Assembly: GCF_002923755.1 (NCBI RefSeq)
Contig: NZ_PGFZ01000009.1
Location: forward strand, 22,345 to 67,168
Direction of reading: 5' to 3'
Source of the DNA: Methylovulum psychrotolerans
Lineage (GTDB): Bacteria; Pseudomonadota; Gammaproteobacteria; Methylococcales; Methylomonadaceae
DNA length: 44,824 nt
A program made the position numbers and the translations under genes. A model generated the notes under the pieces. The model searched no databases. It had not been told where the DNA came from and saw nothing but the letters and a program-made list of their open reading frames with translations. Every line of letters starts with the position of its first letter. Positions within the stretch are counted from its first letter, which is position 1. Positions 29,874 to 42,708 of this stretch are shown here, one piece after another.

Positions 29874-29994
29874 GTGCCAGTTCAGCACGTTAAATGACGA
29901 ATAAACATTGCAACATAGAAACAAAGCAGTTTTACTGTAATTTGAAAACAACGCGGCTTGCCGCAACCTGAAAACAACACGGCCTTGCCGTAAT
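29874..29994 (+). repeat. 121-bp multi-hairpin repeat, copy 1
   Basis: This is the first of three related copies (also 36703-36823 and 39722-39843). It has four small hairpins in series: GTGC-CAGTTCA-GCAC, CAGT-TTT-ACTG, CGGC-TT-GCCG and CGGC-CTT-GCCG, the last three spaced by AAACAA-type linkers. It ends 8 bp before the leader switch of the MoxR gene. Confidence 0.8.
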
Positions 29995-30002
29995 TTACAA
30001 CG

Positions 30003-30071
30003 AACCCACCAGGGAACCATTTCCCCGGTAGGGCATTTGTGTTTCCTGTTCAATATAGGAATATACAGATG
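30003..30071 (+). promoter_or_regulatory. leader switch L1 (moxR-like gene)
   Basis: ACCC at 30004-30007 precedes A (AGGGAA, 30011-30016), A' (TTCCC, 30021-30025) and GGG (30031-30033). B (ATTTGTGTTTCCT, 30035-30047) can pair with A, or with C (AGGAATATACAGAT, 30057-30070), which holds the ribosome-binding site and start codon. Confidence 0.6.
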
Positions 30072-31031
30072 AACAAAATTTCAGTCGCCTCCACTTTCGG
30101 CATCGATGCACCACAGGCCTTTACTGTAGATGCGTTTGTTGATGACCAACACCCTTTGATTCCTCCTAAAACAGATTATGTGTTTAGAAAGGATCATGTC
30201 CGTGACCTTCTGGCTTTTTTGTCTAAGCCTTACGGTGACGCTTATTATTTGACTGGCCCCACAGGATCGGGAAAATCGTCTTTGGTTTGCCAAATGGCAG
30301 CCCGATTAAATTATCCCGTGCAGCAAATAACCTGTCACGGCCGTTTGGATTTTAACGATCTCGTCGGGCAATTCATGATGTCTAACGGTTCTATGACGTT
30401 TGTCCACGGGCCATTGTCAGTGGCGCTTCGTGACGGGCATATTTTGATTTTGAATGAAATCGATCTAATGGACCCATCCGAACTGGCCGGATTAAACGAC
30501 ATTATCGAAGGTAATTCTCTGACCATTCCTCAGAACAATCGCGAAGTCATTAAGCACCATGCCCATTTCCGTTTAATTGTCACGGGCAATTCAGCGGGAC
30601 AAGGCGATGCAAGCGGTTTGTATTCGGGGGTCATGCAACAAAATTTGGCGTTTATGGATCGGTTTAGAATGATGGTCGTGGATTATCCAGAGCCTTCAGT
30701 TGAAAAAGCCATACTTAACCAGAGACTGGAAGCCCTAGGCGTTCCGCTTGATTCAATCATGGATGTGGTGATCGACAACATGATTAAAGTAGCGAATGAA
30801 ATCCGCCAGCTTTTTATGGGTTCAGTTGATGGTGTCGGGGCATTAACGGTAACGATGTCAACCCGGACATTAATACGCTGGCTCAATATCATGGTGAATT
30901 TCCGACGTGCCAAAAACGTGCTGCCGTATTCACTGGAACGGGCTTTATCTTTCCGGGCGGAACCTGCGCAACGTGAAGCGATCCACCGGATTGCCAAAGA
31001 CATTTTTGGACATGATTGGGAGATGGCATAG
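30069..31031 (+). CDS. MoxR/CobS-like AAA+ ATPase, 320 aa
   Basis: Walker A is GPTGSGKS (63-70), Walker B is ILILNEID (125-132), and LIVTGNSAGQGDASGLYSG covers the sensor 1 region. The family (CbbQ, NorQ, CobS) works with VWA-domain partners as remodelling chaperones. Here the partner is likely the VWA protein at 33652. The start at 30069 follows AGGA at 8 bp. It heads a long plus-strand unit that begins after a 121-bp repeat and leader switch L1. CobS itself is a cobaltochelatase subunit, but no cobalamin genes are present. Confidence 0.85.
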   Translation: MNKISVASTFGIDAPQAFTVDAFVDDQHPLIPPKTDYVFRKDHVRDLLAFLSKPYGDAYYLTGPTGSGKSSLVCQMAARLNYPVQQITCHGRLDFNDLVGQFMMSNGSMTFVHGPLSVALRDGHILILNEIDLMDPSELAGLNDIIEGNSLTIPQNNREVIKHHAHFRLIVTGNSAGQGDASGLYSGVMQQNLAFMDRFRMMVVDYPEPSVEKAILNQRLEALGVPLDSIMDVVIDNMIKVANEIRQLFMGSVDGVGALTVTMSTRTLIRWLNIMVNFRRAKNVLPYSLERALSFRAEPAQREAIHRIAKDIFGHDWEMA

Positions 31032-31118
31032 CGGTTAATGTTTTATCCTTGCCGCTATTGGCAAGGCGTAATCGGTAAAGACCAGGTATCTTAACCGGAA
31101 TTTTTGAAACAATTTTAA

Positions 31119-31189
31119 CACCCCAGAAGGGCAAATCCAGCCCTGACGGGCATATTTGCCCTTCTTTACATTATTGGAGAGCAACTATG
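31119..31189 (+). promoter_or_regulatory. leader switch L2 (DUF3150-like gene)
   Basis: A (GAAGGGCAAAT, 31126-31136) and B (ATTTGCCCTTC, 31154-31164) are perfect complements. A' is GCCCT (31140-31144), followed by ACGGG. C (AGAGCAACTAT at the RBS and start) pairs with B only with a bulge. Confidence 0.55.
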
Positions 31190-32407
31190 ACTACAAGCAC
31201 AACCGCCACTACAAACACCACCCACACAGCCGAGTTCATGCTCGACCAACTCCAAGTGGTGAAACTGACTATCCGGCTCTGGACTAGCTCCAAGAAGCTG
31301 CGCCCTGAAGACCTTAAATTGGCTGACGGCACGGTTTTGCCCCCTGACACGTTAGCGTCGCTGGGTACTAAAAAGACGATTGACCCTAAGCAGTTGCTTG
31401 AGTTTACCCGAATCAAGAAAGAAGCTGAGCGTATTTGTCTCGAAGCCGGCACCCGCTTTATCGGCGGTTTCGCAAACCCTTCTGAGGAAATACCTAGGAT
31501 CGTCAATGAACTTGACGCACTTTCTCGTTTATTTGACCAAGAAAAGCAGCGCTTTTTAAACGTCTATTCAGAAAGCACCGAACACTGGATTAACCAACAT
31601 CCAGATTTTGCGGATGCTATCAGAAACGCCATCGAACCTGCCGCCAGTGTGGCTCGGAAATTGGTTTTTGATTACATGGTGTTTCGGGTAAGCAAACCTC
31701 AAGGCGAGTTGGGGGATTCATTGAACAGGCATACCCTTTCATTGAGCGACCAGTTATTTAGGGAAATCGCCCAAGATGCCAAAGAGCTTATTGACCGTTC
31801 GTTTGTCGGCAAAGATTCTGTCACCGGGCGGGTTTTGAACGCTTTTCGACGTATGCGTGACAAACTGGATAGCTTGGGTTTTCTGGATTACCGTTGCTTT
31901 CCCATCGTTGACGAAATTGACAGGGTTTTAGCGTCAATACCTAAAAGTGGCCCTTACAACGGTTCTGCTTATCATGCCTTGTTCGCGTTGGGGTTATTGT
32001 TGTCCGACCCTGACAAGGTGAAGGCGCATGGTGGTGGTTTGTCACAAACGCAGGCTTCATGGCCTGATGATGTCGGGCAACCGTCCGCTTTTGAATCCGT
32101 CATGCCAGAAGATGATGAACAAGCGATGGCTTGGCCTAACGAAACTACATTGTTCACGTTGGATGATTATAACGCCATACAATACGTCGAAGATGATGAC
32201 GAAGATGATGATGTCGGAAATCCCCGGTTACCGCCACATTTCAACAGGACTGCATTATCTGAATGGGATGCCACACAAGCCATCGTATTTACCGGGGCTG
32301 TGCAACAACCCACCACAGATGTAGCCGATGCAAAAACTGACGGTAACGTCGTAAAAACACAGATTCCTGTCCCTGCCATCAATAGCACCAATGACATGTG
32401 GTTCTGA
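31187..32407 (+). CDS. DUF3150-like protein, 406 aa
   Basis: After a Thr-rich start, residues 17-250 are helical and contain FMLDQLQVVKLTIRLWTSSK, ARKLVFDYMVFRV and DKLDSLGFLDYRCFPIVDEI. This matches my recollection of DUF3150, a family found in integrative elements beside a MoxR/CobS-type ATPase and a VWA protein, which is also the order here. The C-terminal 130 residues are acidic and low in complexity (EDDDEDDDVGNP). Function unknown; it probably forms a complex with its neighbours. GGAG precedes the ATG. Confidence 0.65.
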   Translation: MTTSTTATTNTTHTAEFMLDQLQVVKLTIRLWTSSKKLRPEDLKLADGTVLPPDTLASLGTKKTIDPKQLLEFTRIKKEAERICLEAGTRFIGGFANPSEEIPRIVNELDALSRLFDQEKQRFLNVYSESTEHWINQHPDFADAIRNAIEPAASVARKLVFDYMVFRVSKPQGELGDSLNRHTLSLSDQLFREIAQDAKELIDRSFVGKDSVTGRVLNAFRRMRDKLDSLGFLDYRCFPIVDEIDRVLASIPKSGPYNGSAYHALFALGLLLSDPDKVKAHGGGLSQTQASWPDDVGQPSAFESVMPEDDEQAMAWPNETTLFTLDDYNAIQYVEDDDEDDDVGNPRLPPHFNRTALSEWDATQAIVFTGAVQQPTTDVADAKTDGNVVKTQIPVPAINSTNDMWF

Positions 32408-32432
32408 CAGAATCCCATGTAATCTAATCTTA

Positions 32433-32499
32433 CCCGGCGGGTGCCAACTATCCGTATGGGCAGTTCGTATCCGCCATCAACTATTTGGAGATAGCTATG
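32433..32499 (+). promoter_or_regulatory. leader switch L3
   Basis: A (GGCGGGTGCCAACT, 32436-32449) pairs with B (AGTTCGTATCCGCC, 32462-32475) at 13 of 14 positions, counting wobbles. GGG lies at 32458-32460, after upstream ACCC. C (TTGGAGATAGCTATG, 32485-32499) pairs with B over GATA/TATC only, so the third arm is weak. Confidence 0.45.
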
Positions 32500-32919
32500 C
32501 GAACAATATGCCCACAAGTAAGTGGTATCTATGAAAACAACAACCATGCTGATCCAAGTGATCCTTATGCTTTCCTGATGCTCAAAAAAGACCATCCAGG
32601 ACGGGAGTTAATTTCAACTAATGCTTTTAAGGTAAATGTATCAGGTGAAATTGACCCAAACCATAAACATCCGCTTGATTGCTTTGCCCGTGATTTTGGA
32701 GATTTTATCAAACCAATTTATCGTCCCATTGACAACGAACTCTTTGATGCGCTCGATTTAGTTTTCCAATTAGCATCATCAAATTGTTTAGACAATGAAT
32801 ACGATATCGAAAATGCTGGTGATGAAATTTGTTATGAGATTGCAACAGAGTGTAAGCGACAACGTACTGCACTTAATTTAGTGAATGACTACCTTGCAAA
32901 TCATCCATTGGTAGTCTGA
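32497..32919 (+). CDS. hypothetical protein, 140 aa
   Basis: I do not recognise this protein. It is acidic and Cys-containing, with DNELFDALDLVFQLASSNCL and ENAGDEICYEIATECKRQR in the C-terminal half. There is no membrane segment. The start at 32497 follows TTGGAG. It is AT-richer than the genes before and after, and is flanked by leader switches L3 and L4. Confidence 0.6.
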   Translation: MRTICPQVSGIYENNNHADPSDPYAFLMLKKDHPGRELISTNAFKVNVSGEIDPNHKHPLDCFARDFGDFIKPIYRPIDNELFDALDLVFQLASSNCLDNEYDIENAGDEICYEIATECKRQRTALNLVNDYLANHPLVV

Positions 32920-32940
32920 TAAGCAACACTTAAATTTTTA

Positions 32941-33006
32941 CCCACGGGAAAGCAATTTTCCCGTTTAGGGTTCTCTTGCTTTCCCTTCATTAAAGGAAAG
33001 CAAATG
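32941..33006 (+). promoter_or_regulatory. leader switch L4
   Basis: A is CGGGAAAGCAA (32945-32955), A' TTTTCCCG (32956-32963), GGG 32968-32970, B TTGCTTTCCC (32976-32985) and C GGAAAGCAAATG (32995-33006). B pairs perfectly with A, and with C over nine contiguous pairs including the RBS. One of the clearest examples. Confidence 0.7.
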
Positions 33007-33567
33007 GGATATACACATAATTTTCAAATAACAAGACGACCAACTCAAGAAAATTGGGCGCATCTCATGTTTGATGTTGAACATCTAATTAAAACGTTGC
33101 CCAGTTATCATGAATTGATAAACCTTGGTTCTGATGTCGACAAGGGCATTGTCCTGCGCGGCCCGATGGGTGATAAAAAGCCTATCTGCAATTCAAGAAA
33201 GATTGCCTTCAATGGTGACTCCTTAACGGATTCCGCCTGCGAAACCTTCTTGTTAGCCCCCAAAGTCATGGCTGATTCATGCAAAACAGCCCGCCAGCCC
33301 TACGATTTTGTGGTCTGCGCGTCATTGGTTCTTGGTTTTTTGCACATCCCTGATTTTGTGCTTACCAGCGATGGTGACACGGATGACTGGCTTCCTGCCG
33401 TATCTTGGGTGCGCCAGAATATCAATCCGGCTGCGGTGATGCCGTCTGCTATCAAGGAGGTTAAATCCAATGTGACGGCGGAACCCCCACCAAAATCGGC
33501 AGCTACCCAAACGCTGTCAGTGTATTTCACCACTATGCCATTGTCTGTTCCAGACGCCTATTTCTGA
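33004..33567 (+). CDS. hypothetical plasmid/phage-type protein (MGYTH start), 187 aa
   Basis: The MGYTHNF start, with IAFNGDSLTDSACETFLL and CKTARQPYDFVVCASLVL, matches a family of uncharacterised proteins common on plasmids, phages and integrative elements. Its function is not known. The conserved core is about residues 1-130; the C-terminal tail is Ser/Pro-rich and less conserved. Confidence 0.7.
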   Translation: MGYTHNFQITRRPTQENWAHLMFDVEHLIKTLPSYHELINLGSDVDKGIVLRGPMGDKKPICNSRKIAFNGDSLTDSACETFLLAPKVMADSCKTARQPYDFVVCASLVLGFLHIPDFVLTSDGDTDDWLPAVSWVRQNINPAAVMPSAIKEVKSNVTAEPPPKSAATQTLSVYFTTMPLSVPDAYF

Positions 33568-33583
33568 AACAGACGATTTTATA

Positions 33584-33654
33584 ACCCAACTGGGGCAACC
33601 ATACGCCCCAATGGGGACATGGTTTGCCCCGTACCTTTACTGGAGCAAACCATG
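33584..33654 (+). promoter_or_regulatory. leader switch L5 (VWA gene)
   Basis: A is TGGGGCAACC (33591-33600), A' GCCCCA (33605-33610), GGGG 33613-33616, B GGTTTGCCCC (33621-33630) and C GGAGCAAACCATG (33642-33654). B:C pairs 9 of 10 bases over the RBS up to the start codon; B:A is an alternative. Confidence 0.7.
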
Positions 33655-35283
33655 AAACAAAACAGAACGTTAAACGGCGCATTCCCGATTGTCGCCGCCG
33701 CCTTGGGCAATAGCTTGGGCGTAAAAGTCAGGGTCGGCGGATGTGTTGCCCAAACTGACGGCAAGACAATCACCATTCCGGCGTATAACCAGGATGACCC
33801 GTATTATAAGGACATTGCTTGGGGATATTTGGCGCACGAAGCGGCACATGTGCGGTTCAGTGATTTTGATGAATTCACACGCGCTGCAACCAACCCAATC
33901 CGCAGAACAATGGTCAATATCCTAGAGGATATCCGCATCGAAAGCGGCATCATCAGGCTTTATCCAGGGACTAAACAGACCCTACAAAAAATGGATGAAC
34001 ACTTGTTCTTGGGCAATAACAGCCGTTCAGACAAACCAATGGCACCCGCCACCATTTTGTCGAATTTTATGTTATTGAGGTTGAGTGCCGATGTCCTGGG
34101 CTTCAAGTCCCTAAATGATGTGGCAGATGCAGCTGAAGCGGATCTGGCAAAGACTTTTCCTGAAGCGTCGGTCACACGTCTGATGGCCTTGCTCTCCGAC
34201 GTGCCTTTCCTACAAAACACCCGTGACTGTGTCAGATTAGCTGACCGCATATTACGGATGTTTGAAGAGGAACGGGAGACAGCGGCACAACATGAACATC
34301 AGGAGCAATTCCCGGAATCTCCACCAGAAGATAGTCCACAACCTCCTGGTCAGGCTAATGATGTGCAAGCTCAAGAACAGGAACAAACGCAATTTTACCA
34401 AATCCTCTCTTCCGTCCTGAATGCGTCTGACGAGGATTTGCCCGTAGACCGTGCAGAAACCATCAGGGACATTTTGGACGGGCAGCACCAAGCCTGTTAT
34501 GACGAAGATGTTGAATTGCCCGTTGCTAGGAAGCCTGAATGTAATGCCGTTCTTGGCCAAGAACTATTAAAAAAGGTACTTGGTCACTCTGCCCGCCTCA
34601 GGTTGGCTCTGCAAAGCTTTGTACAAGGAAGCCAAAACCACAGCCGAAGCCACAAACGCTCCGGCAACAAAATTGACGGCAGCCGTTTGCACAAGTTGGC
34701 TTTAGGCGATTCAAGGTTGTTCGTACATCAAGCACCAAAACAATCGCCGAATGCGGCGTTTGCCATCCTTATTGACGCTTCAGTTTCCATGAACACAGAG
34801 GTCGCCGACACCGGACAAAACCGGATTGGGTTGGCGATGGAAGCGGCCTTGGCCCTGGCGTTGGCATTGGAAGCAATTCCTGGCGTCAATCCATCCGTGA
34901 CCAAGTTCCCGTATGAAGATACCAACGACGTAGTTCCCCTATTGCGGCATGGGCAAAAAGTCAGACCCAATGCTGCGGCTTTTTTGCCTGTCACTAGCGG
35001 ATTAACGCCGCTGTGTTCGGCTTTATGGTATACCGCTTCTTCCGTATTGTCGGCACGCGAGCATCGCAAAATCATTATGGTGCTTAATGACGGACAACCT
35101 GATAATTTGGATGCCACAAGGTCTGTCATTAGACGTTGCGAAGCATCTGGGATAGAGCTCATAGGTGTCGGTATTGGTTATGACACCAGCCACTTGTTCA
35201 GCAGGTCAATTGTTATTAACGACCTGTCTGAATTGGGTACCCAACTGTTTCGCATCAGCCGGGATTTATTGGTTGCCGCTTAA
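33652..35283 (+). CDS. CobT-like VWA-domain protein with HEAAH motif, 543 aa
   Basis: The C-terminal half is a von Willebrand A domain with a MIDAS motif DASVS (Asp375, Ser377, Ser379) in FAILIDASVSMN, and later TSGLTPLCSAL and VLNDGQPDN. This is the expected partner of the MoxR-type ATPase. Near the N-terminus AHEAAHVRFSD (His62, Glu63, His66) resembles a zincin HExxH. The middle is Glu/Gln/Pro-rich and probably disordered. The start at 33652 follows GGAG. The pair may remodel a protein target during element replication or transfer; that is inference. Confidence 0.82.
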   Translation: MKQNRTLNGAFPIVAAALGNSLGVKVRVGGCVAQTDGKTITIPAYNQDDPYYKDIAWGYLAHEAAHVRFSDFDEFTRAATNPIRRTMVNILEDIRIESGIIRLYPGTKQTLQKMDEHLFLGNNSRSDKPMAPATILSNFMLLRLSADVLGFKSLNDVADAAEADLAKTFPEASVTRLMALLSDVPFLQNTRDCVRLADRILRMFEEERETAAQHEHQEQFPESPPEDSPQPPGQANDVQAQEQEQTQFYQILSSVLNASDEDLPVDRAETIRDILDGQHQACYDEDVELPVARKPECNAVLGQELLKKVLGHSARLRLALQSFVQGSQNHSRSHKRSGNKIDGSRLHKLALGDSRLFVHQAPKQSPNAAFAILIDASVSMNTEVADTGQNRIGLAMEAALALALALEAIPGVNPSVTKFPYEDTNDVVPLLRHGQKVRPNAAAFLPVTSGLTPLCSALWYTASSVLSAREHRKIIMVLNDGQPDNLDATRSVIRRCEASGIELIGVGIGYDTSHLFSRSIVINDLSELGTQLFRISRDLLVAA

Positions 35284-35321
35284 CGAAATTGATTTCGGCT
35301 TTTCCTTTAATTAGCGTTTTT

Positions 35322-35387
35322 AACCCAATCGGGAAATTTCCCGGTGATGGGCATTTTCCCGATTTTTTCACGAGAAAAATATATGCC
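35322..35387 (+). promoter_or_regulatory. leader switch L6 (33-codon ORF)
   Basis: A is CGGGAAA (35330-35336), A' TTTCCCG (35337-35343), GGG 35349-35351, B GCATTTTCCCG (35351-35361) and C CGAGAAAAATATATGCC (35371-35387), pairing CG-GAAAA and ATGCC with B. The C arm covers the start of a short ORF at 35383, not of the larger gene at 35481. Confidence 0.55.
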
Positions 35388-35484
35388 TGTTTTTAAGATA
35401 AACCCGAATATCAGCTCCAAATACCAGCAGGAACTAGGGGCAAGGTTGTCCCTAATTTCAGTTTGCTATTGGAGAACCTTATGA
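35383..35484 (+). CDS. short ORF, 33 aa, possible leader peptide
   Basis: MPVFKINPNISSKYQQELGA is the first part of a 33-residue frame that ends in the sequence TTATGA, so its stop overlaps the ATG of the next gene at 35481. It has its own leader switch (L6) placed exactly over its start. Both facts argue that it is translated and coupled to the next gene. An internal hairpin, AAGGTT (in the 35440s) with AACCTT just before 35481, could hide the downstream start until the short ORF is read. Confidence 0.5.
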   Translation: MPVFKINPNISSKYQQELGARLSLISVCYWRTL

Positions 35485-36380
35485 GCCAAGTCGATTCCAA
35501 TTTATTCGACACTTATCCAGAATTACTGAGTTACCCACAATGTCAGTACAGCGATATTGAAATACAGGGTGTCGTCGAGATTAACAGTGACGGCCAGACA
35601 GAAACCCAGTGCCAAATAGATGACGAAAATCCACATTTTTTTTCAGTTTATATCAGGCACAAGGACGGTTGCAGCGAAGTCATCGCCGATGCGGGGCTTA
35701 GCAAGCTTAACGTTTTGCGTGAGTTTTCCCAAAGATTGGCTGACCGGCACCAATGGCGCTATAAAGATTATACGCTGGGCCAGGCTTATTGGCTTGATGT
35801 GTCGCAGATGGCGGGTCATCTTGAAGCCCATGCCCTCAATCAAAAAACTTGGTTTTGCAGGTTATGCAAACAACCGACAAAGCTTATCTTCGGCACGCTG
35901 TCGCTCTGTCAACAATGCCTGGGACTTTTGCCACATATCGGAACTAAGATTATTTCCATCCAAGGCAAAATGTCCGAGACAACAAATGCCGTTGATATTC
36001 TGACTGTTAATAACTCGGAGGGCGTTGTCGACGGCATATTTCCAGAACAGGAAAACTGCTTTTCTGTCGTGTTTCAAAATGGTGTGACGCAATTTTTAAG
36101 TCCTAGGGAAATCACCGACACCCATAACTACCGGATCATCAAAAAACATGATGTGCATTGTTATGTTGTGGTCAGGGTTTCCGCTAGGGGCATTGAAGCC
36201 GAAAGCCACCAGGCAGCAATTGAAAAAGCCGAAGCGGCGCTTGATTTTCATGCCATGCTGAGTACCGGAGCGGATATGGAATATGCCGAAATAGTTATCG
36301 GGCATACTGTTGATGAATTAGGTGATGAAAACTACCTGAACACTGGCCACTACAAAGCCCAATACGCCCCATTTTTTTAG
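35481..36380 (+). CDS. hypothetical protein with zinc ribbon, 299 aa
   Basis: I do not recognise the family. The centre has a four-Cys zinc ribbon, WFCRLCKQPTKL followed by LSLCQQCLGLL. The N-terminal 120 residues are mixed alpha/beta with a DGCSEVIADAGLSKLNVLRE segment that recalls DUF1828-like domains, weakly. RBS TTGGAG precedes the start. It is the last gene of the first switch-controlled unit; a 322-bp gap follows. Confidence 0.6.
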   Translation: MSQVDSNLFDTYPELLSYPQCQYSDIEIQGVVEINSDGQTETQCQIDDENPHFFSVYIRHKDGCSEVIADAGLSKLNVLREFSQRLADRHQWRYKDYTLGQAYWLDVSQMAGHLEAHALNQKTWFCRLCKQPTKLIFGTLSLCQQCLGLLPHIGTKIISIQGKMSETTNAVDILTVNNSEGVVDGIFPEQENCFSVVFQNGVTQFLSPREITDTHNYRIIKKHDVHCYVVVRVSARGIEAESHQAAIEKAEAALDFHAMLSTGADMEYAEIVIGHTVDELGDENYLNTGHYKAQYAPFF

Positions 36381-36702
36381 GCTCACCAAATGGGGCATTT
36401 TTGGGCAAGACTTGCCATTCAATTGTTAATGGCTGTCAGATTATCGGCGGACGGCAAAGACATTTTCGGCCATTTAACGCCCAAAACGTCACTGTACGAT
36501 TGAACTACAGCACAAAAGCAACGTATTTCAATACGGCACAAAAATATTCCAAAAGGAACTGTTAAATCGTGTCTTTTGGCCTTAACCACTTGACGGTATT
36601 GGTATAAAATACAGTCAACGCCATTGCGGAATTTACTGTTTGCGTATTGCTTAAAGACGGTTTTAACGAATTTTTGTAGCTCCCTACGGGACTCAAAAGC
36701 CA
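36381..36702. other. intergenic region, 322 bp
   Basis: It separates two transcription units. A small CGTATT-TCA-AATACG hairpin lies near 36520-36535. No gene, clear terminator or promoter can be assigned by eye. It leads directly into copy 2 of the 121-bp repeat. Confidence 0.35.
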
Positions 36703-36823
36703 GTGCCAGTTCAGCACTTTAAATGACGAATAAACATTGCGACATAGAAACAAAGCAGTTTTACTGTGATTTGAAAACAACGCGGTTCGCCGTAATCTGA
36801 AAACAACACGGCCTTGCCGTAAT
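36703..36823 (+). repeat. 121-bp multi-hairpin repeat, copy 2
   Basis: It has the same length and hairpin order as copy 1. In the third hairpin the arm-loop reads CGG-TTCG-CCG, so the pairing is kept despite change. It precedes leader switch L7. Confidence 0.8.
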
Positions 36824-36840
36824 TTTAAACATTCACCTGC

Positions 36841-36905
36841 TGGGGAAATCACTTCCTTAGTCGGGTAACGTGTGTTTCCCCGGTTTTACCGAGGATACAC
36901 ACATG
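36841..36905 (+). promoter_or_regulatory. leader switch L7 (46-aa protein)
   Basis: A is TGGGGAAATCAC (36841-36852), A' TTCC (36853-36856), GGG 36863-36865, B GTGTGTTTCCCCGGT (36870-36884) and C ACCGAGGATACACACATG (36888-36905). B:C pairs 13 of 15 positions across the RBS to the start codon. The longest B:C helix of the set. Confidence 0.7.
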
Positions 36906-37043
36906 AAAAGCATCATCATTTTAACGTTAGTATTAGGCACTGTCGGCACAGCATTATCTGCCGGTAAACAAGCGTTTGACACAACCGTTCAATTAAACCA
37001 ACAACGTCATGCACAAATTGCTGCACTGACTACAAACCCTTAA
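36903..37043 (+). CDS. small secreted or membrane protein, 46 aa
   Basis: The frame begins MKSIIILTLVLGTVGTALSA, a signal peptide or single membrane helix with a plausible ALSA cleavage site, and continues with a short polar tail ending LTTNP. It is too short for most gene finders. Leader switch L7 lies precisely over its start with GAGGA as RBS, which strongly supports translation. Function unknown; entry exclusion or a lysis-like role is only speculation. Confidence 0.65.
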   Translation: MKSIIILTLVLGTVGTALSAGKQAFDTTVQLNQQRHAQIAALTTNP

Positions 37044-37105
37044 ATTTTAGGCAACTTAGCGTTTCTAAATTTTAACTTTCATCTGAGGATCGCTGTCCTC
37101 ATAAA

Positions 37106-37182
37106 CATCCTTTGGGAGACTTTTGCTCCCTTTGGGTCGCATACAGGTCTCCCTCTTTAATTGATTGGAGATTTTTAATATG
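37106..37182 (+). promoter_or_regulatory. leader switch L8 (ssb)
   Basis: A is GGGAGAC (37114-37120), A' GCTCCC (37125-37130), GGG 37134-37136, B GGTCTCCC (37146-37153) and C TTGGAGA (37165-37171). B pairs fully with A over GGGAGAC, or with the RBS through TCTCC/GGAGA. A further GAGGAT-CCTC hairpin lies just upstream. Confidence 0.6.
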
Positions 37183-37536
37183 CATAACAGTGTCACACTT
37201 GTTGGCCGTTTAGGTAAAGAACCTGAAATTCGTTACACTCAGGAACAAGCACCTATTGCGACCCTATCTATCGCCACCACCGAGTATCGTAAGGATGGCG
37301 CTGCTTCCCATACCGAATGGCATCGCGTCGTTTTGTTTGGCAAATTGGCTGAAATCGTCCGTGACCGTAATCCGAAAAAAGGGTCGATGATTCTTATCGA
37401 AGGCTCACTTCGCACACGCAAATGGCAAGATTCCGCCAAAGTCGATCGTTACACCACTGAAATTATTGCCAACATTTATACAGAACTCGGCTCAAAATCC
37501 GAGCATTCTTCAAATGCTTCTGACAATCCATTTTAG
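37180..37536 (+). CDS. ssb: single-stranded DNA-binding protein, 118 aa
   Basis: This OB-fold protein has NSVTLVGRLGKEPEIRYT at the start, EWHRVVLFGKLAEI and GSMILIEGSLRTRKW, all typical of SSB. The C-terminal tip is DNPF, a shortened version of the DDDIPF tail that recruits partner proteins. It is shorter than chromosomal SSB, as is usual for element-encoded copies. It probably protects single strands during transfer or replication. Start 37180 follows TTGGAG. Confidence 0.92.
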   Translation: MHNSVTLVGRLGKEPEIRYTQEQAPIATLSIATTEYRKDGAASHTEWHRVVLFGKLAEIVRDRNPKKGSMILIEGSLRTRKWQDSAKVDRYTTEIIANIYTELGSKSEHSSNASDNPF

Positions 37537-37615
37537 CGTTGTTTATCAATATGAAATTGGATTAGTATCTGCCTAATGTCATTGACATTTGGCTTTTCTA
37601 TTTCCTAATTTCCAT

Positions 37616-37687
37616 TTCCCCCGCCGGGACAGCTTTTAGCCCTTTCAGGACTTAAGGTGTTCCGGCATTTTTTTAGGAGGTCACATG
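37616..37687 (+). promoter_or_regulatory. leader switch L9
   Basis: A is GCCGGGACA (37623-37631), preceded by CCC. B is TGTTCCGGC (37658-37666) and pairs with A through one wobble. C (AGGAGGTCACATG, 37675-37687) pairs with B only over short TCC/GGA and TGT/ACA blocks, so this copy is weaker. Confidence 0.45.
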
Positions 37688-38041
37688 GTAAAGACATTTC
37701 AAACGCCTGCCCAACAGTACGCCCATGATAAGTCAAATTTCGATATTTTTAACGATTACGATTTTTTATGGGGTAAAGAGTCGGATTCCACTACGCCTTG
37801 GTCGGAGTCGGATATTTTGTGCCTATGTGAAAAATTGTTGGAATCATCACTTGCCAGCTTGTTGGATAGCAGACGTTCATGGAATACCAGAAAAGAAATC
37901 TATTTTTGGATTCTGAACGAATCTGACAAAAATCCTTTCAGTTTCAACAATTGTTGCCAATTTACCGGTGTTGACCACGATGTCATCAGGGATTTTGTCA
38001 TGCAAAAATTCAAACCACAGCTGCTTCGCCAGCTCCATTAA
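37685..38041 (+). CDS. hypothetical protein, 118 aa
   Basis: I do not recognise this protein. It is helical and rich in aromatic residues, with DFLWGKESDS and NTRKEIYFWILNESDKNPFS. There is no membrane segment. AGGAGG is an unusually strong RBS for this region. It lies between leader switches L9 and L10. Confidence 0.6.
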   Translation: MVKTFQTPAQQYAHDKSNFDIFNDYDFLWGKESDSTTPWSESDILCLCEKLLESSLASLLDSRRSWNTRKEIYFWILNESDKNPFSFNNCCQFTGVDHDVIRDFVMQKFKPQLLRQLH

Positions 38042-38109
38042 ACCCATAAGGGGCAATTCCCCTTTTATGGAGTTATTGCCCCTAAAATGAATAGAGGTAT
38101 TAACTCATG
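38041..38109 (+). promoter_or_regulatory. leader switch L10
   Basis: A is AGGGGCAAT (38049-38057), A' TCCCCTT (38058-38064), B AGTTATTGCCCCT (38071-38083) and C AGAGGTATTAACT (38093-38105). B pairs perfectly with A over 9 bases and with C at 11 of 13 positions including a wobble. ACCC lies at 38042-38045. Confidence 0.65.
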
Positions 38110-38580
38110 CCAGAAAAATCAAAATTTATCGTAACTTACGAAATCAATTACGTCCATCGTGTTCAAGTAGGCTTTTTAGCCACCGATAAAGATGCGGCAA
38201 TTCTCTCTGCAAAAGAGGCATTTGATAATGGCACAATTTGGGATGACACCCATGAAATGCCCTTGTTATATGACCAATATATTGAAGTCGGTGACGATTC
38301 CTTAACGTTCAGCGCAGAACCCGTTTCCGATTTCCCGGAACCCGATGAGTCTATAATCGATATCCGCCGCAAAGAGCAAGCTTTCACAGATTGTGACTCC
38401 TTGCTTAAAGACGTGGGTTCTGGATTGAATTTTGCGATGGAAGTTTTTAGTGGGTTGCGATCAGTTCAGCCCGAAAATGCAACGCCAGCTTTTGAGTGCC
38501 CCGACTGCGGCCGTGTTTACGACGATGCCAACCAATGCCTTTCGGACGATTGCCCATCACGGGACGCATCAACTAAATAA
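38107..38580 (+). CDS. hypothetical protein with C-terminal zinc ribbon, 157 aa
   Basis: The C-terminus carries ECPDCGRVYDDANQ followed by CLSDDCPS, a four-Cys zinc-binding unit. The N-terminal 75 residues are alpha/beta with TDKDAAILSAKEAFDNGTIW, similar in style to small element-encoded proteins that begin with a beta-strand YEINYVHRVQV. Family unknown. Confidence 0.6.
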   Translation: MPEKSKFIVTYEINYVHRVQVGFLATDKDAAILSAKEAFDNGTIWDDTHEMPLLYDQYIEVGDDSLTFSAEPVSDFPEPDESIIDIRRKEQAFTDCDSLLKDVGSGLNFAMEVFSGLRSVQPENATPAFECPDCGRVYDDANQCLSDDCPSRDASTK

Positions 38581-38667
38581 AGTCCCGTCCGAGCCTTAAT
38601 ATTTTTTACTGGCCTTACATATCCATTTTCTGGAAGCCAACTCACGATAACTACAACTTATGAAAAT

Positions 38668-38739
38668 CCTGTAAGGAACCACATATCCTTAACGGATGCT
38701 GAGTTTCTTGCAGGCTTAAATATCCTGGAGAAACACATG
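38668..38739 (+). promoter_or_regulatory. leader switch L11
   Basis: A is CCTGTAAGGAAC (38668-38679), A' TCCTT (38686-38690), GG 38694-38695, B GTTTCTTGCAGG (38703-38714) and C CCTGGAGAAACACATG (38724-38739). B pairs with A through two wobbles, and with C as CCTG plus AGAAAC with a small bulge. Confidence 0.65.
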
Positions 38740-39006
38740 CAAACAAGCTGTATACAACAAACACATCAAGTGTCTATTGGACAAGACGAAGTAATTTTCA
38801 CTCACGCCGAAAGCGTCCGTTTTTGGCGGCTCAACAGCATCATGGCGTTACGCGCATGTCGAGCAGAGGAATGCCTAGCCGTTGACCCTGATCATTTAAG
38901 CGTAATCAGAGCCGATAACGCCGAGCTTGTCAAACTTGAAGCGCGGGAAAAAGCAGTCAAAGCCCGTCATGCCCGGATATACAACACCGGCTGTAGAAAA
39001 CACTAG
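38737..39006 (+). CDS. hypothetical protein, 89 aa
   Basis: I do not recognise this protein. It has an N-terminal beta-rich part (HQVSIGQDEVIFTHAESV) and a charged helical end (VKLEAREKAVKARHARIYNT). The leader and the first bases (ATGCAAACAA) are nearly the same as those of the gene at 39164, although the proteins differ. GGAG lies 6 bp before the ATG. Confidence 0.6.
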   Translation: MQTSCIQQTHQVSIGQDEVIFTHAESVRFWRLNSIMALRACRAEECLAVDPDHLSVIRADNAELVKLEAREKAVKARHARIYNTGCRKH

Positions 39007-39095
39007 AACTCAACAAACCTATGAATTTGCTGCTTACTGATTTTTTAAAACCCATTTTTTGACAGAAAACTAAGACAGCCAAATCTATAAACTAT

Positions 39096-39166
39096 CCTGC
39101 AAGGATTCACAATCCTTAATGGATGCTGTGTTCCTTGCGGTGACCAACTTCCTGGAGAAACACATG
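39096..39166 (+). promoter_or_regulatory. leader switch L12
   Basis: A is CCTGCAAGGAT (39096-39106), A' ATCCTT (39112-39117), GG 39121-39122, B GTGTTCCTTGCGG (39128-39140) and C CCTGGAGAAACACATG (39151-39166). It is a sister of L11: C is identical, while A and B have changed together. Confidence 0.65.
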
Positions 39167-39529
39167 CAAACAAAATACACAGCAGAAACACTGAAATTGG
39201 CCCTTGACCAATACATAGGCACGGAGAATTGGTACCATCACTCCTTATTGAAAAAATTTCTTTATACTGATGGCGCCCAATTTTTCTTTCAAGAAACAGA
39301 AAGCTATTGGTTGCTTGACCTGATTACCTTTGAATATTTTCCCTTATTGCAACATGAGCCGTTTTTGTCGATTGTCGTCGAATCAGAATCACAGCAATGC
39401 AAAATCTGTGTTGATGATGGCAATGGTAATGTGCTGGCAACTAAGCATATTTCTTTTAGCACATTAATTTCCGGTATTTGGAAGTTCTATTTGATTGACA
39501 ACGTATTGATGCTTCCGACTGAATATTGA
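39164..39529 (+). CDS. hypothetical protein, 121 aa
   Basis: I do not recognise this protein. It is acidic and aromatic, with FFQETESYWLLDLITFEYFP and ISGIWKFYLIDNVLMLP. The domain may resemble DUF6876, a small single-domain family of mobile elements, but I am not sure. The ATG at 39164 with GGAG at 6 bp is preferred over an in-frame upstream ATG at 39119 that lies inside the leader switch. Confidence 0.6.
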   Translation: MQTKYTAETLKLALDQYIGTENWYHHSLLKKFLYTDGAQFFFQETESYWLLDLITFEYFPLLQHEPFLSIVVESESQQCKICVDDGNGNVLATKHISFSTLISGIWKFYLIDNVLMLPTEY

Positions 39530-39623
39530 TTGGGATACGGTTACAACAGTTAGCCTGCTGAATGTGACTATGCTAAATATCACCTGATAAAATATACATT
39601 TTAATGTTTTATCTTAATTTTTT

Positions 39624-39651
39624 GATGACAATTGTATATACTCTTGTCATC
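39624..39651. promoter_or_regulatory. inverted repeat GATGACAA/TTGTCATC, candidate operator
   Basis: GATGACAA (39624-39631) and TTGTCATC (39644-39651) flank TTGTATATACTC, which looks like a -10 region. It lies about 70 bp before copy 3 of the 121-bp repeat, where the promoter of the third unit may be. Confidence 0.4.
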
Positions 39652-39721
39652 TTTCCAGAATGCAAAGCTTATGTATTGCGGAAAGATGGATTTTTGTGGT
39701 TCCTTTTTGGACCCGAAAGAT

Positions 39722-39843
39722 GTGCCAGTTCAGCACTTTAAATGACGAATAAACATTGAGACATAGAAACAAAGCAGTTTTACTGTACCCTAAAAACAAC
39801 GCGGCATTGCCGCAATCTGAAAACAACACGGCTTTGCCGTAAT
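39722..39843 (+). repeat. 122-bp multi-hairpin repeat, copy 3
   Basis: It has the same order of four hairpins as copies 1 and 2: GTGC-GCAC, CAGT-ACTG, GCGGC-GCCGC and CGGC-GCCG. One extra base is found in the third hairpin (CGGCATTGCCG). It precedes leader switch L13. Confidence 0.8.
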
Positions 39844-39852
39844 CTAAATCAA

Positions 39853-39922
39853 CCCACCGGGGAACCACTTCCCAGGTCGGGCATTTGTGCGTTCCCTGGC
39901 ATTTATTGAGGACTCACAAATG
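39853..39922 (+). promoter_or_regulatory. leader switch L13 (GHKL gene)
   Basis: A is CCGGGGAACCAC (39857-39868), A' TTCCC (39869-39873), GGG 39879-39881, B ATTTGTGCGTTCCCTGG (39883-39899) and C GAGGACTCACAAATG (39908-39922). B:C includes ATTTGTG with CACAAAT over the start codon; ACCC is at 39852-39855. Confidence 0.7.
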
Positions 39923-41524
39923 CAACAAACTCTCTTGACAGTCAACCCAACCAAATTGGTTAACGCATTAAGGCACAGTTTCACTAACAACACTACTGTG
40001 TTGGGGGAGCTGATGCAAAACTCCCGCCGTGCACAAGCGACATCGGTTGAATTCCTTTTTGACCACCCAACTAACACACTTACCGTCATTGATGACGGTT
40101 GCGGCATCGAATCCATCGATACACTGCTTACTGTTGCAGAATCAGGATGGAATGCCGATGTTATTGCTCAAGAACATCCGTTTGGCATTGGTTTTTTATC
40201 CGCTTTGTACGCTTGCCAGCATATCACTGTCGTCAGCAAAAGCGGGAAACTGATGTCAAATACAGATGAGATACTCACATTCCAACCGATTTCGATAGTA
40301 CCTGTCGATAATTGGGACGGAAAAACGGTTATCACGTTGCAAGAAATTGGGTTGGAGTTTGAGCAAATCAAACGCAAGCTGATAGAACTAGCGCGTGGCT
40401 TCCCAACGCCTATCGTCTTTGATGGACAGCTTCTCAGCCGAGATTGCGCCATTGATACTTCGAGTGAATTTATCGATACCGAAATCGGATCAATACGTTT
40501 GGCTATGGATAACAAAGAAAGTTGTGTCGATATTGATGTTTACTTTCAAGGTCTGCCCATTTATCGCACCAACAGAACTTTTCGTGATGCCATTCCAAGG
40601 CATATCATTCATCTCGATCCGTCCAAGTTTATAGCCAGGCTTCCTGACCGCGACAAATTGGTGGATGAAGAAAATGCGATCAAAACAATCAGAAGTACAC
40701 TCGCTAAATATATTGAGGACTATTATCTGAAATTGAAAGCGACTGTTGATCCAATGGATTTTGTCACAAACTATCAAATGTTAAATAGTTGGTATTTGCT
40801 TCATTTGCTGAACGATGTTCCTGTTGTGCCTGCTTGTGTTTTGCAAACTTTCGTTGATTATCCCAATTGTGACGAATCTGGATTTGGATACTATTTATCT
40901 CCGTCCAATGCGGTGTTAACATTGGCCGAGCTTAACAGCAAAGGTGTCGTCAGTATGGATGAGTGTGTTAAATACGATGGGGCTTTATGCCATACGTTTG
41001 CTATGCAGAAAGGCTATTATGTTTATCATGGCGGGCTGCATCCTGAACATTGGATACACCAGTTAGTCAAGAAATTAGAAAAACCAACGGTTGAGCTGGT
41101 TAATGAAACCCGATCAGCACTATTTAAAGGCGATTGGGTCTGGGTTCAAGTCCGTTTTTGTGATTCTTATGAAATTACAGTTGGCGGCGAAACTATCGAA
41201 ATTAATGGTCATACCATTTATTTGGGTGAAGATAATGGCAATGAAGTAGTAATGCCGCGTTTGGGCAATACGTCTGGCGTGTTGACACAAATATCTTCTT
41301 ATCGTGATGACAATGAGGATTTCCAGCAATCTGCTTATGAATCCGACCAAGCGGCATTATATTCTTTCTGTGTGGCTAATCGGACGGATGACCCGCTTGT
41401 CAGCATCCAGCAACTTTTGCCGACACATCTTCCGTGTCCAATATTGTATGGAAATAGTTTCCATCTTCATGTCAATGCGGATGGCAATGTGACTGTTACC
41501 ACGCTTGAAAAAATGGTTGCTTAG
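39920..41524 (+). CDS. GHKL/HATPase-fold ATP-binding protein, 534 aa
   Basis: The first 120 residues form an Hsp90/histidine kinase-type ATP site: N-box ELMQNSRRAQAT (Glu30, Asn34), VIDDGCGI (Asp59, Gly60, Gly62) and HPFGIGF. MutL- and Hsp90-like proteins share it. The remaining 400 residues are not recognised and show no HNH, kinase or toprim motif. Such stand-alone GHKL proteins occur on large plasmids and integrative elements, with unknown roles. The start at 39920 follows GAGGA. It heads the third switch-controlled unit. Confidence 0.75.
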   Translation: MQQTLLTVNPTKLVNALRHSFTNNTTVLGELMQNSRRAQATSVEFLFDHPTNTLTVIDDGCGIESIDTLLTVAESGWNADVIAQEHPFGIGFLSALYACQHITVVSKSGKLMSNTDEILTFQPISIVPVDNWDGKTVITLQEIGLEFEQIKRKLIELARGFPTPIVFDGQLLSRDCAIDTSSEFIDTEIGSIRLAMDNKESCVDIDVYFQGLPIYRTNRTFRDAIPRHIIHLDPSKFIARLPDRDKLVDEENAIKTIRSTLAKYIEDYYLKLKATVDPMDFVTNYQMLNSWYLLHLLNDVPVVPACVLQTFVDYPNCDESGFGYYLSPSNAVLTLAELNSKGVVSMDECVKYDGALCHTFAMQKGYYVYHGGLHPEHWIHQLVKKLEKPTVELVNETRSALFKGDWVWVQVRFCDSYEITVGGETIEINGHTIYLGEDNGNEVVMPRLGNTSGVLTQISSYRDDNEDFQQSAYESDQAALYSFCVANRTDDPLVSIQQLLPTHLPCPILYGNSFHLHVNADGNVTVTTLEKMVA

Positions 41525-41575
41525 AGTAGCCCGAAGAAAATTGTTAAACCCTGAACAATCTTCATAACTTTTATA

Positions 41576-41653
41576 TCCCTGCGGGAAAATTCATTTTCCC
41601 AGCCGTGGACACTGTTTTTTCCCGCACCGTCTGCCTAGTGCCGGAGAAACATG
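41576..41653 (+). promoter_or_regulatory. leader switch L14
   Basis: A is GCGGGAAAAT (41581-41590), A' ATTTTCCC (41593-41600), GG 41607-41608, B GTTTTTTCCCGC (41614-41625) and C GCCGGAGAAACATG (41640-41653). B pairs with A, or with C over GC, GG, A and AAAC with one bulge. Confidence 0.65.
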
Positions 41654-42484
41654 ATGTCCAAATCTTTTTTTCAAAAGAACGTTGACCGCCGCAGCCGTAC
41701 TGCAATGGCCAATTTTCTCAAATCACACTGCCGCTATGACACCATGCGTTCTTGGAACGGAATGACGTCATATGCCCAAAACATCAAGATTCATAATTTA
41801 GGCCTGTCATTTGAACAAGCCGACAGAGCCTATGACATGCTTGAAACCGACTACTGGAATGAAATTCGCCAGCCTATTGATACCTTCATTAGGGAACACG
41901 GCCATTCCTATACGATTGGCACCAATGGCCGATCTTCAGGTTATCTAGTTCTTTATGAATCGCATCTTGAGGTCACAGGCCATTACAGTTATTGCCCGAT
42001 GTGCGGCCAAAATAACTATAAAAAAGTGCCACCGATTTTTGTGGACATGAACGCACAAACCATTGCGCAAGAAATCCTTAAAAATCCAAACGCCCACCAT
42101 CCGAATGTCTATCTGCAACAGTCCACAGTCCAGGCATTGTCGATGACAGACGATGAGAAATGGATACTGGCAAATCGCCTGTCAATTGAATTACGCAACT
42201 GTTCTTTACACACCAGTTGTGGAATTTGCGGAACAACCCGCGTTAATTATCAAGTGCCGCCCAAGCGTTCGGTGGTACGAAGCAATGGCATTGATCAGGG
42301 TGAATGCTTTGACCAGGAAGATTGGACTATGTCCAGGCTTCGCGAACGGGTTGATTTGGTGTGTGCATTTGATGCAACGTGTGATGCCATCCGCGACAAC
42401 TACATTGCCTTGATCGGCAATTGCCGTGTCGTAGAATCCGTGGAATATCAGCCCATCGTAGTTAAGCAGCTTGCTTGGGTTTAG
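41654..42484 (+). CDS. hypothetical protein with two Cys pairs, 276 aa
   Basis: Family not recognised. YCPMCGQNNYKKVPP (about 115) and SCGICGTTRVNYQVPP (about 195) are two CxxC knuckles each followed by a VPP turn, so they may form one zinc site or two linked rubredoxin-like knuckles. Two adjacent ATGs occur at 41651 and 41654; the second fits the GGAG spacing (7 nt) better. Confidence 0.6.
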   Translation: MSKSFFQKNVDRRSRTAMANFLKSHCRYDTMRSWNGMTSYAQNIKIHNLGLSFEQADRAYDMLETDYWNEIRQPIDTFIREHGHSYTIGTNGRSSGYLVLYESHLEVTGHYSYCPMCGQNNYKKVPPIFVDMNAQTIAQEILKNPNAHHPNVYLQQSTVQALSMTDDEKWILANRLSIELRNCSLHTSCGICGTTRVNYQVPPKRSVVRSNGIDQGECFDQEDWTMSRLRERVDLVCAFDATCDAIRDNYIALIGNCRVVESVEYQPIVVKQLAWV

Positions 42485-42559
42485 CGCGACATGACACGTT
42501 ATTTCCTTGAGACGAAACTGGCCTAATATCCTCTTTTATCGGCCAGCTACCTTACACAA

Positions 42560-42708
42560 CCCTTCCGGGAGAAAACTTTTCTCCTCACAGGGGTGTTGGT
42601 TTTCTCTCGGAACTTTCTGTCTTGCCTTCCGGGACTTCCTTAATGCCCGTTGGCACGGGCATTAAGGAAGTCCCGGTGGTCGGGGCTATAACCAGGAGAA
42701 AAACCATG
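42560..42708 (+). promoter_or_regulatory. leader switch L15, with inserted hairpin
   Basis: A is TTCCGGGAGAAAAC (42563-42576), A' TTTTCTCC (42577-42584), GGGG 42590-42593, B GGTTTTCTCTCGGAA (42598-42612) and C CCAGGAGAAAAACCATG (42692-42708). B pairs with A and with C over the RBS. B and C lie about 80 bp apart because of a 22-bp stem hairpin between them. Confidence 0.65.
42629..42676. repeat. perfect 22-bp stem hairpin
   Basis: The arm 42629-42650 (starting CCGGGACTTCCTTAATG) is perfectly complementary to 42655-42676, with the 4-nt loop TGGC. No T run follows, so it is not a classic terminator. It lies wholly between segments B and C of L15 and looks like an insertion that leaves the switch arms intact. 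Confidence 0.85.

Follow-up and report, generated by a model that had tools for sequence, protein, structure and literature searches.

Candidate translational attenuators with gene-specific arms, repeated before the genes of a Methylovulum psychrotolerans block and its relatives on plasmids and other elements

Gene Block and Leaders

A 44,824-nt stretch of Methylovulum psychrotolerans DNA (the window), part of a 197-kb contig, was analyzed. Between 30 and 44 kb it carries genes for a MoxR-like AAA ATPase, a DUF3150 protein, a VWA/CobT-like protein, a single-stranded DNA-binding protein (SSB), a DUF6876 protein, a HATPase and a toprim/primase-like protein, with ParA and ParB genes upstream and an S24 peptidase gene downstream. 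It is related to the ssb-bet-exo-CobS-DUF3150-VWA block known from IncA/C plasmids and SXT-like elements. An earlier sequence-only reading had proposed that fifteen of its genes are each preceded by an RNA leader with segments A, A', B and C, of which B pairs either with A or with C, and C holds the ribosome site. We examined the leaders within 30003–42708, and the shared plan was borne out on a larger scale than that reading could see. It runs P1(CCC)-A-A'-P1'(GGG)-B-loop-C, where C contains the Shine–Dalgarno sequence (SD) and the AUG, and it is found gene after gene in related blocks. The outer stem P1 (CCC/GGG), which encloses A:A', is an addition to the proposed plan.

For 17 starts in the window, an ungapped A:B plus B:C sharing one B was scored against 100 dinucleotide shuffles each. 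This scorer is blind to bulged leaders and was left untuned afterwards, so that some weak scores may be artefacts. A covariance model, R1, was built from 39 of 47 candidate leaders, three of which came from the window (31187, 33004 and 33652); its E-values in the window scan refer to 665 kb. The leaders and their arms are as follows.

30003–30071, plus strand: leader of the MoxR/CobS-like AAA ATPase gene (30069); R1 E 1.7e-4; shuffles 11/100
31120–31189, plus strand: leader of the DUF3150 gene (31187); E 7.2e-6, in training set; shuffles 0/100
31125–31136 and 31176–31189, plus strand: A and C of the 31187 leader
32431–32499, plus strand: weak leader of open reading frame (ORF) 32497; E 0.022; shuffles 24/100
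32939–33006, plus strand: leader of ORF 33004; E 2.1e-5, in training set; shuffles 0/100
32946–32955, 32976–32985 and 32995–33003, plus strand: A, B and C of the 33004 leader
33583–33654, plus strand: leader of the VWA (CobT-like) gene (33652), the clearest case, with orthologous leaders; E 3.8e-10, in training set; shuffles 1/100
33585–33588 with 33612–33615, plus strand: P1 of the 33652 leader
33591–33600, 33605–33609, 33618–33631 and 33641–33654, plus strand: A, A', B and C of the 33652 leader, SD and AUG inside C
35322–35385, plus strand: leader of short ORF 35383; E 0.023; B:C weak, shuffles 43/100
35401–35483, plus strand: marginal sixteenth leader, before the gene at 35481, absent from the earlier fifteen; E 0.77; shuffles 43/100
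36834–36905, plus strand: leader of short ORF 36903; E 0.34; shuffles 0/100
36839–36849 and 36888–36902, plus strand: A and C of the 36903 leader
37106–37182, plus strand: leader of the SSB gene (37180); no R1 match at E ≤ 1; shuffles 6/100
37618–37687, plus strand: weakest leader, of ORF 37685; E 0.50; shuffles 83/100
38041–38109, plus strand: leader of ORF 38107; E 0.18; shuffles 0/100
38049–38057 and 38092–38106, plus strand: A and C of the 38107 leader
38664–38739, plus strand: leader of ORF 38737; no R1 match at E ≤ 1; shuffles 1/100
39091–39166, plus strand: leader of the DUF6876 gene (39164); no R1 match at E ≤ 1; shuffles 1/100
39851–39922, plus strand: leader of the HATPase gene (39920); E 0.016; shuffles 29/100
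41575–41653, plus strand: leader of ORF 41651; E 0.12; shuffles 0/100
41580–41589 and 41638–41649, plus strand: A and C of the 41651 leader
42560–42708, plus strand: long leader of ORF 42706, seen in the sequence; no R1 match at E ≤ 1; shuffles 15/100

Eight of the fifteen proposed starts (31187, 33004, 33652, 36903, 38107, 38737, 39164 and 41651) stood at ≤1/100 shuffles. R1 matched 11 of the 15 leaders at E ≤ 1, or 8 of the 12 outside its training set, and also gave an opposite-strand match at 33539–33617 (E 0.046). Thirteen leaders are therefore backed by shuffles or an R1 match, and those of 37180 and 42706 by neither. The relative of 37180 at L043:5005, whose protein is 81% identical, has an A and B that are complementary by eye; the 15/100 of the 42706 leader is ill-suited to its length, since the 110-nt shuffle frame is too short for it. 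The P1 of the 38737 leader seems by eye to be ATCC/GGAT, and the 39164 leader resembles the 38737 leader in sequence.

Gene-Specific Pairing and Covariation

Leaders for a pairing test were chosen by the core motif alone, leaving out L041, L057, L058, L062 and the opposite-strand matches in L037, L047 and L056. Removal of exact duplicates left 190 leaders and removal of near-identical ones 137, of which one was dropped for a too-short B region. In the 136 non-redundant leaders, A scored 19.6 with its own B and 13.0 with the B of other genes (z = 26), and C scored 18.1 and 12.9, respectively (z = 22). With the shared G-run removed, z was 14.7 for A:B and 19.1 for C:B. Chance pairing was rejected on the shuffle scores together with this comparison of own and foreign B. 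The core-motif leaders lie almost exclusively on the coding strand of the blocks.

The A:B result was reproduced in leaders found later in other elements, which form alignment A3. From its 99 rows, 79 were taken (ATG end, at least 55 nt), of which 63 were non-redundant and 51 were used, giving z = 11.2. It was 10.6 (n = 46) once seven rows close to training rows were removed, and 8.9 (n = 35) after two DUF3150-type blocks were also dropped, with 0/10,000 permutations in all three cases. A:B lies outside the model, whereas the C:B figures are biased in this set because the model rewards B:C.

Orthologous leaders were also compared, window included, for the VWA (22 loci), DUF3150 (17) and MoxR (19) genes, some of the loci being near-identical. 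By eye, C of the VWA leaders reads GGAGCAAACC, GGAGCAAGCC, GGAGTAGACC or GAGGTTAACC, with B altered to match, and many orthologous leaders retain the plan despite changed letters. The plan was not evident by eye in the VWA leader of a Pseudoalteromonas plasmid or in the SSB leaders of several loci.

Covariation was evaluated against the 95% permutation maximum. Alignment A2, the best 150 of 270 R1 matches, was tested on 102 non-redundant rows, in which the covarying pairs were 12-19, 8-23 and 7-24 of A:A', four pairs of B:C, and 12-40 and 13-39 of A:B; one non-structural pair, 54-58, adjoining the SD, also exceeded the cut-off. Two positions therefore each have partners in two arms, 12 in A' and B and 40 in A and C, which is what mutually exclusive folds would produce. 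The A:B pairs covary although A:B is outside the model. The pairs above the cut-off in A3 were four of A:A' and one of B:C. For A:B and for P1, P2 and B:C, paired cells and covariation score in A2 were higher than in any of the 500 shuffles or any slid register, and the cells with two-sided change likewise exceeded all shuffles. P1 behaved differently in detail: its middle pair is C-G in 141/141 distinct rows of A2, with no pair showing two-sided change and no covariation, so P1 either serves as a common recognition site or is held constant by the needs of folding.

The second helix falls at the SD and AUG. Every one of the 150 rows of A2 has a terminal ATG, which opens an ORF of at least 40 aa in 146; in A3, 88 of 99 rows end in ATG and 72 open such an ORF, while the background rate for ATGs with an SD-like site is 223/417. 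Because the ATG belongs to the model, it is the ORFs that test the start-site position. The proposal that A:B and B:C exclude each other at the ribosome site, and are kept so by selection, thus found support in both the gene-specific pairing and the covariation.

Predicted Folding and the Proposed Switch

The folding figures are equilibrium models of chosen leaders. The fold forced to contain B:C was more stable in 90 of 109 leaders, with a mean gain of 4.0 kcal/mol across all 109; when the RNA ended at B, A:B appeared in the minimum free energy (MFE) structure of 87 of 109. In 121 leaders, the mean probability of A:B was 0.60, 0.19 and 0.13 for RNAs ending at −12, +3 and +24, and that of B:C was 0.01, 0.59 and 0.64. 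Predicted SD–AUG accessibility was 0.35 (n = 137), as against 0.47 with shuffled upstream sequence and 0.47 in 45 control genes; it became 0.51 when B was blocked and 0.32 when A was blocked. Blocking the stretch between A and B converted B:C to A:B in 41 of 84 leaders, raised A:B in the MFE from 16 to 62 of 121 leaders, and changed accessibility from 0.34 to 0.41. This suggests that A' counteracts A and biases the leader toward the off state. In these models, A:B would form first in the growing RNA and the default state would be OFF.

Taken together, the sequence comparisons and folding models make it likely that the leaders are repeated cis-acting translational attenuators with an anti-attenuator arm. 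In the OFF state, C, with the SD and often the AUG, would pair with B. In the ON state, A, an imitation of C, would take B instead, and A' together with P1 would hold A and so favor OFF. Candidate triggers of the ON state are a protein bound to P1/P2, a host RNA chaperone, or slow refolding of the nascent RNA. The earlier proposal of folding kinetics is a possible ON route, with the models placing B:C ahead at equilibrium once the AUG is made; its broader proposal, translational control, is what best fits the leader data as modeled.

Weighing the Switch against Alternatives

Several results weigh against a switch. Seven of the fifteen window leaders do not beat their shuffles singly (37180, 30069, 42706, 32497, 39920, 35383 and 37685, at 6, 11, 15, 24, 29, 43 and 83 of 100), so the scrambled-leader control, taken leader by leader, backs eight of the fifteen. 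The covariation test was positive for A:A' and B:C, and for A:B in A2, with no single A:B column pair significant in A3. Pairs with two-sided change in A2 do not beat shuffles (331/500 for A:B, 218/500 for the model helices), nor do further pair types for A:B (52/500), and A:B slid by −1 nearly equals the true register (69.7% versus 72.2% paired). Results for P1, P2 and B:C are flattered, as A2 was fitted to these helices, and the covariation controls ignore relatedness. The leaders used for the energy work were preselected for the scored helices (109 and 121 of 137), and their predicted ON state is mostly lost at equilibrium once the AUG is made. Six of ten genomes with DUF3150 carry no leader at E ≤ 1e-4. 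The comparison of G-U with A-C cells found G-U better kept in A:B, not in B:C and hardly in P2, which leaves this RNA-versus-DNA test mixed.

Some of these points would suit a static attenuator, in which the B:C hairpin alone sets a low, constant translation and A:B is a by-product or folding guide. Most leaders are predicted to end up in B:C, the A:B columns fall short of significance in A3, and an excerpt of PMC4542580 describes the SXT bet case solely as a hindrance. We regard this explanation as unlikely, since A:B is gene-specific both in the core-motif set (z = 26) and in the later-found leaders (z from 8.9 to 11.2), and its columns covary in A2 outside the model.

Transcription attenuation, with A:B acting as an intrinsic terminator between genes, appears still less probable. 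A TTTT tract follows A:B within 9 nt in 39 of 121 leaders, including 9/11 in L035 and 10/11 in L036; the count is 0/18 in the pRA1 locus L038, 0/12 in L055 and 0/7 in the window set, and the second helix sits at the SD and AUG of ORFs opened in 146/150 rows of A2 and 72/99 of A3. A terminator was thus rejected as the general function, while most leaders of L035 and L036 do have a T-tract.

Folded single-stranded DNA sites exist in other systems, and the carriers here are conjugative or related elements, on which the hairpins could serve recombination or act as single-strand promoters during conjugation. That B:C shows no RNA preference in the G-U comparison would agree with such DNA-level sites. 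This is very improbable given that the arms vary by gene and are located at the SD and AUG, that the core leaders lie almost solely on the coding strand, and that G-U cells in A:B (143, expected 164.6) are better kept than A-C cells (45, expected 74.5). A hidden ribosome site would equally result from a leader-peptide or ribosome-stalling attenuator or from coupling to upstream-gene translation, yet this was rejected as barely credible, because SD-led short ORFs occur in 11 of 137 leaders versus 10.1 in shuffles and P1 lies at varying distances from the preceding ORF (10–90% range 7–287 nt).

Distribution across Elements and Genomes

The plan is not confined to this element. It precedes one gene after another in the records of Methylobacter, pRA1 and Pseudoalteromonas; two Methylomonas records and L040 have it as well, so that it is present on related plasmids and other element types. 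The covariance-model search of related elements, which had been suggested with the first observation, found matches across related blocks. There were 270 with E ≤ 1 in the 665 kb, among them short ones and ones that cover the same hairpins from the opposite strand. R1 had no match in L041 (a 50-kb part of pRA1 that carries rep, par and mob genes), in L057, L060, L061 or L062, or in L058, a copy of the window's final 3.2 kb (from 41657) that takes in the 42706 leader. Leaders are confined to particular gene blocks. In pRA1 (typed IncA), the bet, exonuclease, DUF3150 and VWA genes form a single cluster, and 16 of 35 plus-strand genes at 73–101.5 kb stood at ≤1/40 shuffles, versus 10 of 102 elsewhere, most of those ten lacking the core motif by eye.

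R1 matched 42 of 151 genomes of the family at E ≤ 1e-3 (33 with at least two matches), and at E ≤ 1e-4 21 of 370 genomes of the class and 15 of 397 of the phylum, two of these outside the class; all three samples include the genome of the window and share other genomes too. DUF3150 occurred in 10 of the same 370 class genomes, four of which had both DUF3150 and a leader, and 17 of the 21 leader genomes had no DUF3150 match under stricter filters. Relatives of the VWA protein were found in 14 of 101 genomes, its own included, and the sole VWA locus among named-species genomes was that of an uncultured Methylococcaceae genome (86% identical). VWA relatives were also present in 1156 plasmid records, the best in methanotroph plasmids, followed by Aeromonas, Edwardsiella and enterobacterial records.

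At the loci inspected, the genes behind leaders encode DUF3577/STY4534 ICE (integrative and conjugative element) replication proteins, ArdC-like anti-restriction proteins, RadC, RecT, an SNF2-type helicase, DUF932 and DUF3560. In L093 and L094, as many as 10 matches with E ≤ 0.01 lie on one strand within 20 kb. Such products suggest that leader genes are establishment and DNA-handling genes of conjugative elements.

Comparison with Known Systems

An excerpt of PMC4542580, citing Garriss et al. 2013, places a translational attenuator upstream of bet in SXT and notes it in IncA/C plasmids as well. According to that excerpt, it reduces the translation of a gene that is highly transcribed. Two of our loci bear on it. 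L040, a Proteus record with the gene order SSB, RecT, YqaJ, DUF3150 and RadC, appears SXT-like from this gene content; its R1 match at 8255–8319 (E 0.0038) ends at the start codon of the RecT-family gene (L040:8317), directly upstream of which the leader lies and whose ribosome site it covers. The match before pRA1 bet is at L038:10297–10374 (E 2.6e-5). The SXT bet attenuator is thus probably a member of this leader family, a comparison that concerns position and gene rather than the published structure itself. It is alike in gene family, element family and hindrance of translation, and unlike in that it is printed for one gene, whereas the present leaders cover most of a block, occur on other element types and have the alternative A:B helix. 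According to the part of PMC4344509 consulted, SetCD binding is strongest at s089, the first gene of a large recombination operon, so leaders in that operon would sit in transcripts made in bulk.

As in cis-acting translational attenuators generally, the alternative conserved pairings hide or free the SD and AUG, the A:B columns being below significance in A3. In erm/cat-type translational attenuators, alternative helices likewise hide or free the ribosome site. The leaders differ from these in having no leader-peptide signal, in their topology (A:A' plus B:C versus A:B), and in occurring one per gene throughout a block. An example of the erm/cat type given in an excerpt of PMC5890775 is floR. 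The radC RNA motif (Rfam RF01754), tabulated in the available part of PMC2864571, is also a Proteobacterial cis-regulatory candidate, and some radC genes here carry leaders; it had no match at E ≤ 1 in L080, the sole radC locus scanned. With Rfam 15, no leader reached any family cut-off in the window, L035, L037, L038, L039 and 18 short loci, so an Rfam family was rejected as the identity of the leaders in the stretches scanned. The single sub-threshold match on a leader was mir-1993 at window 42624–42681 (21.6 bits versus a cut-off of 82), which is the extra hairpin of the 42706 leader.

No description of the repeated leaders was found in the literature searched, most subscription journals being outside its coverage. 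The earlier statement that no described RNA class has this design therefore stands for Rfam 15 in the stretches scanned, and gives way at the SXT bet attenuator, in print in the excerpt of PMC4542580. As far as that literature and Rfam show, what is new is that the leaders repeat through a whole block, share a plan while their arms are specific to each gene, have an alternative A:B helix and occur on several element types.

Other Features of the Window and Related Loci

The 42706 leader has an extra near-perfect hairpin between B and C (42619–42686, hairpin score 65). Long near-perfect hairpins lie in a leader at 4 of 7 places checked: this one, L050:14770–14839, L042:2663–2726 and L039:16133–16186. 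They precede toprim genes (L042, L039), an ORF adjoining the toprim gene (window) and an unidentified gene (L050); each hairpin is perhaps a priming site or a separate regulatory site.

A module of about 130 nt, with paired short hairpins after TGAAAACAAC, occurs in three copies directly upstream of leaders (window 29874–30000, 36703–36830 and 39722–39850), with matches of 88% across 142 nt and 94% across 97 nt. The leader blocks of pRA1 and the Pseudoalteromonas plasmid contain seven and four copies, respectively, of a different repeat, AAACAAACAG, which is absent from L041 and L040. These modules and repeats are possibly promoter or antitermination sites. The pRA1 leader matches at L038:7695, 20642, 20901 and 21448 end at ATGs unlike the annotated starts, which suggests missed genes or wrong starts. 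A STAXI RNA (Rfam RF01728, E 6.7e-18) lies at L082:939–1093, about 400 nt upstream of a leader.

Around parA and parB, the palindrome GTGTCCAAT(G/C)ATTGGACAC occurs three times (window 27708, 29641 and 29769) and is likely a parS-type site. Reverse transcriptase (RVT_1) and Cas1 (Cas_Cas1) lie at 20474–22442 in two overlapping ORFs of different frames, so that an RT–Cas1 fusion appears split; a Cas10-like gene is nearby at 12329–14902. The S24 (LexA-like) peptidase gene follows the block at 44186–44740 on the minus strand. SetR of SXT also has an S24 (LexA-like) peptidase domain, as stated in the excerpt of PMC4542580.

Implications

Since the pairing is kept while the letters differ from gene to gene, many genes can share one mode of control without a shared sequence. 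P1 is near-fixed, as a shared recognition site for one factor would be; the data accord with such a site without requiring it. A tentative and rather doubtful extension is an RNA regulon, in which one input acting through the P1 core would flip dozens of leaders with gene-specific arms, so that co-transcribed establishment genes would be translated only at one stage. It might cover recombinases, SSB, anti-restriction and ICE replication genes, and the stage might be reached, for instance, once the element has entered a new cell, suggestions that we hold just as loosely.

The design looks like a widespread and mostly undescribed form of gene control. SXT/R391 ICEs and IncA/C plasmids, whose transcriptional control is well studied, play an important part in carrying drug resistance. 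A translational layer acting gene by gene could explain little protein from highly transcribed genes such as bet, and would mark the genes that belong to one programme. Existing RNA-seq and ribosome profiling data offer a check on the covariance model. The principle would, if true, be that of a regulon whose members have a folding plan, rather than a sequence, in common.

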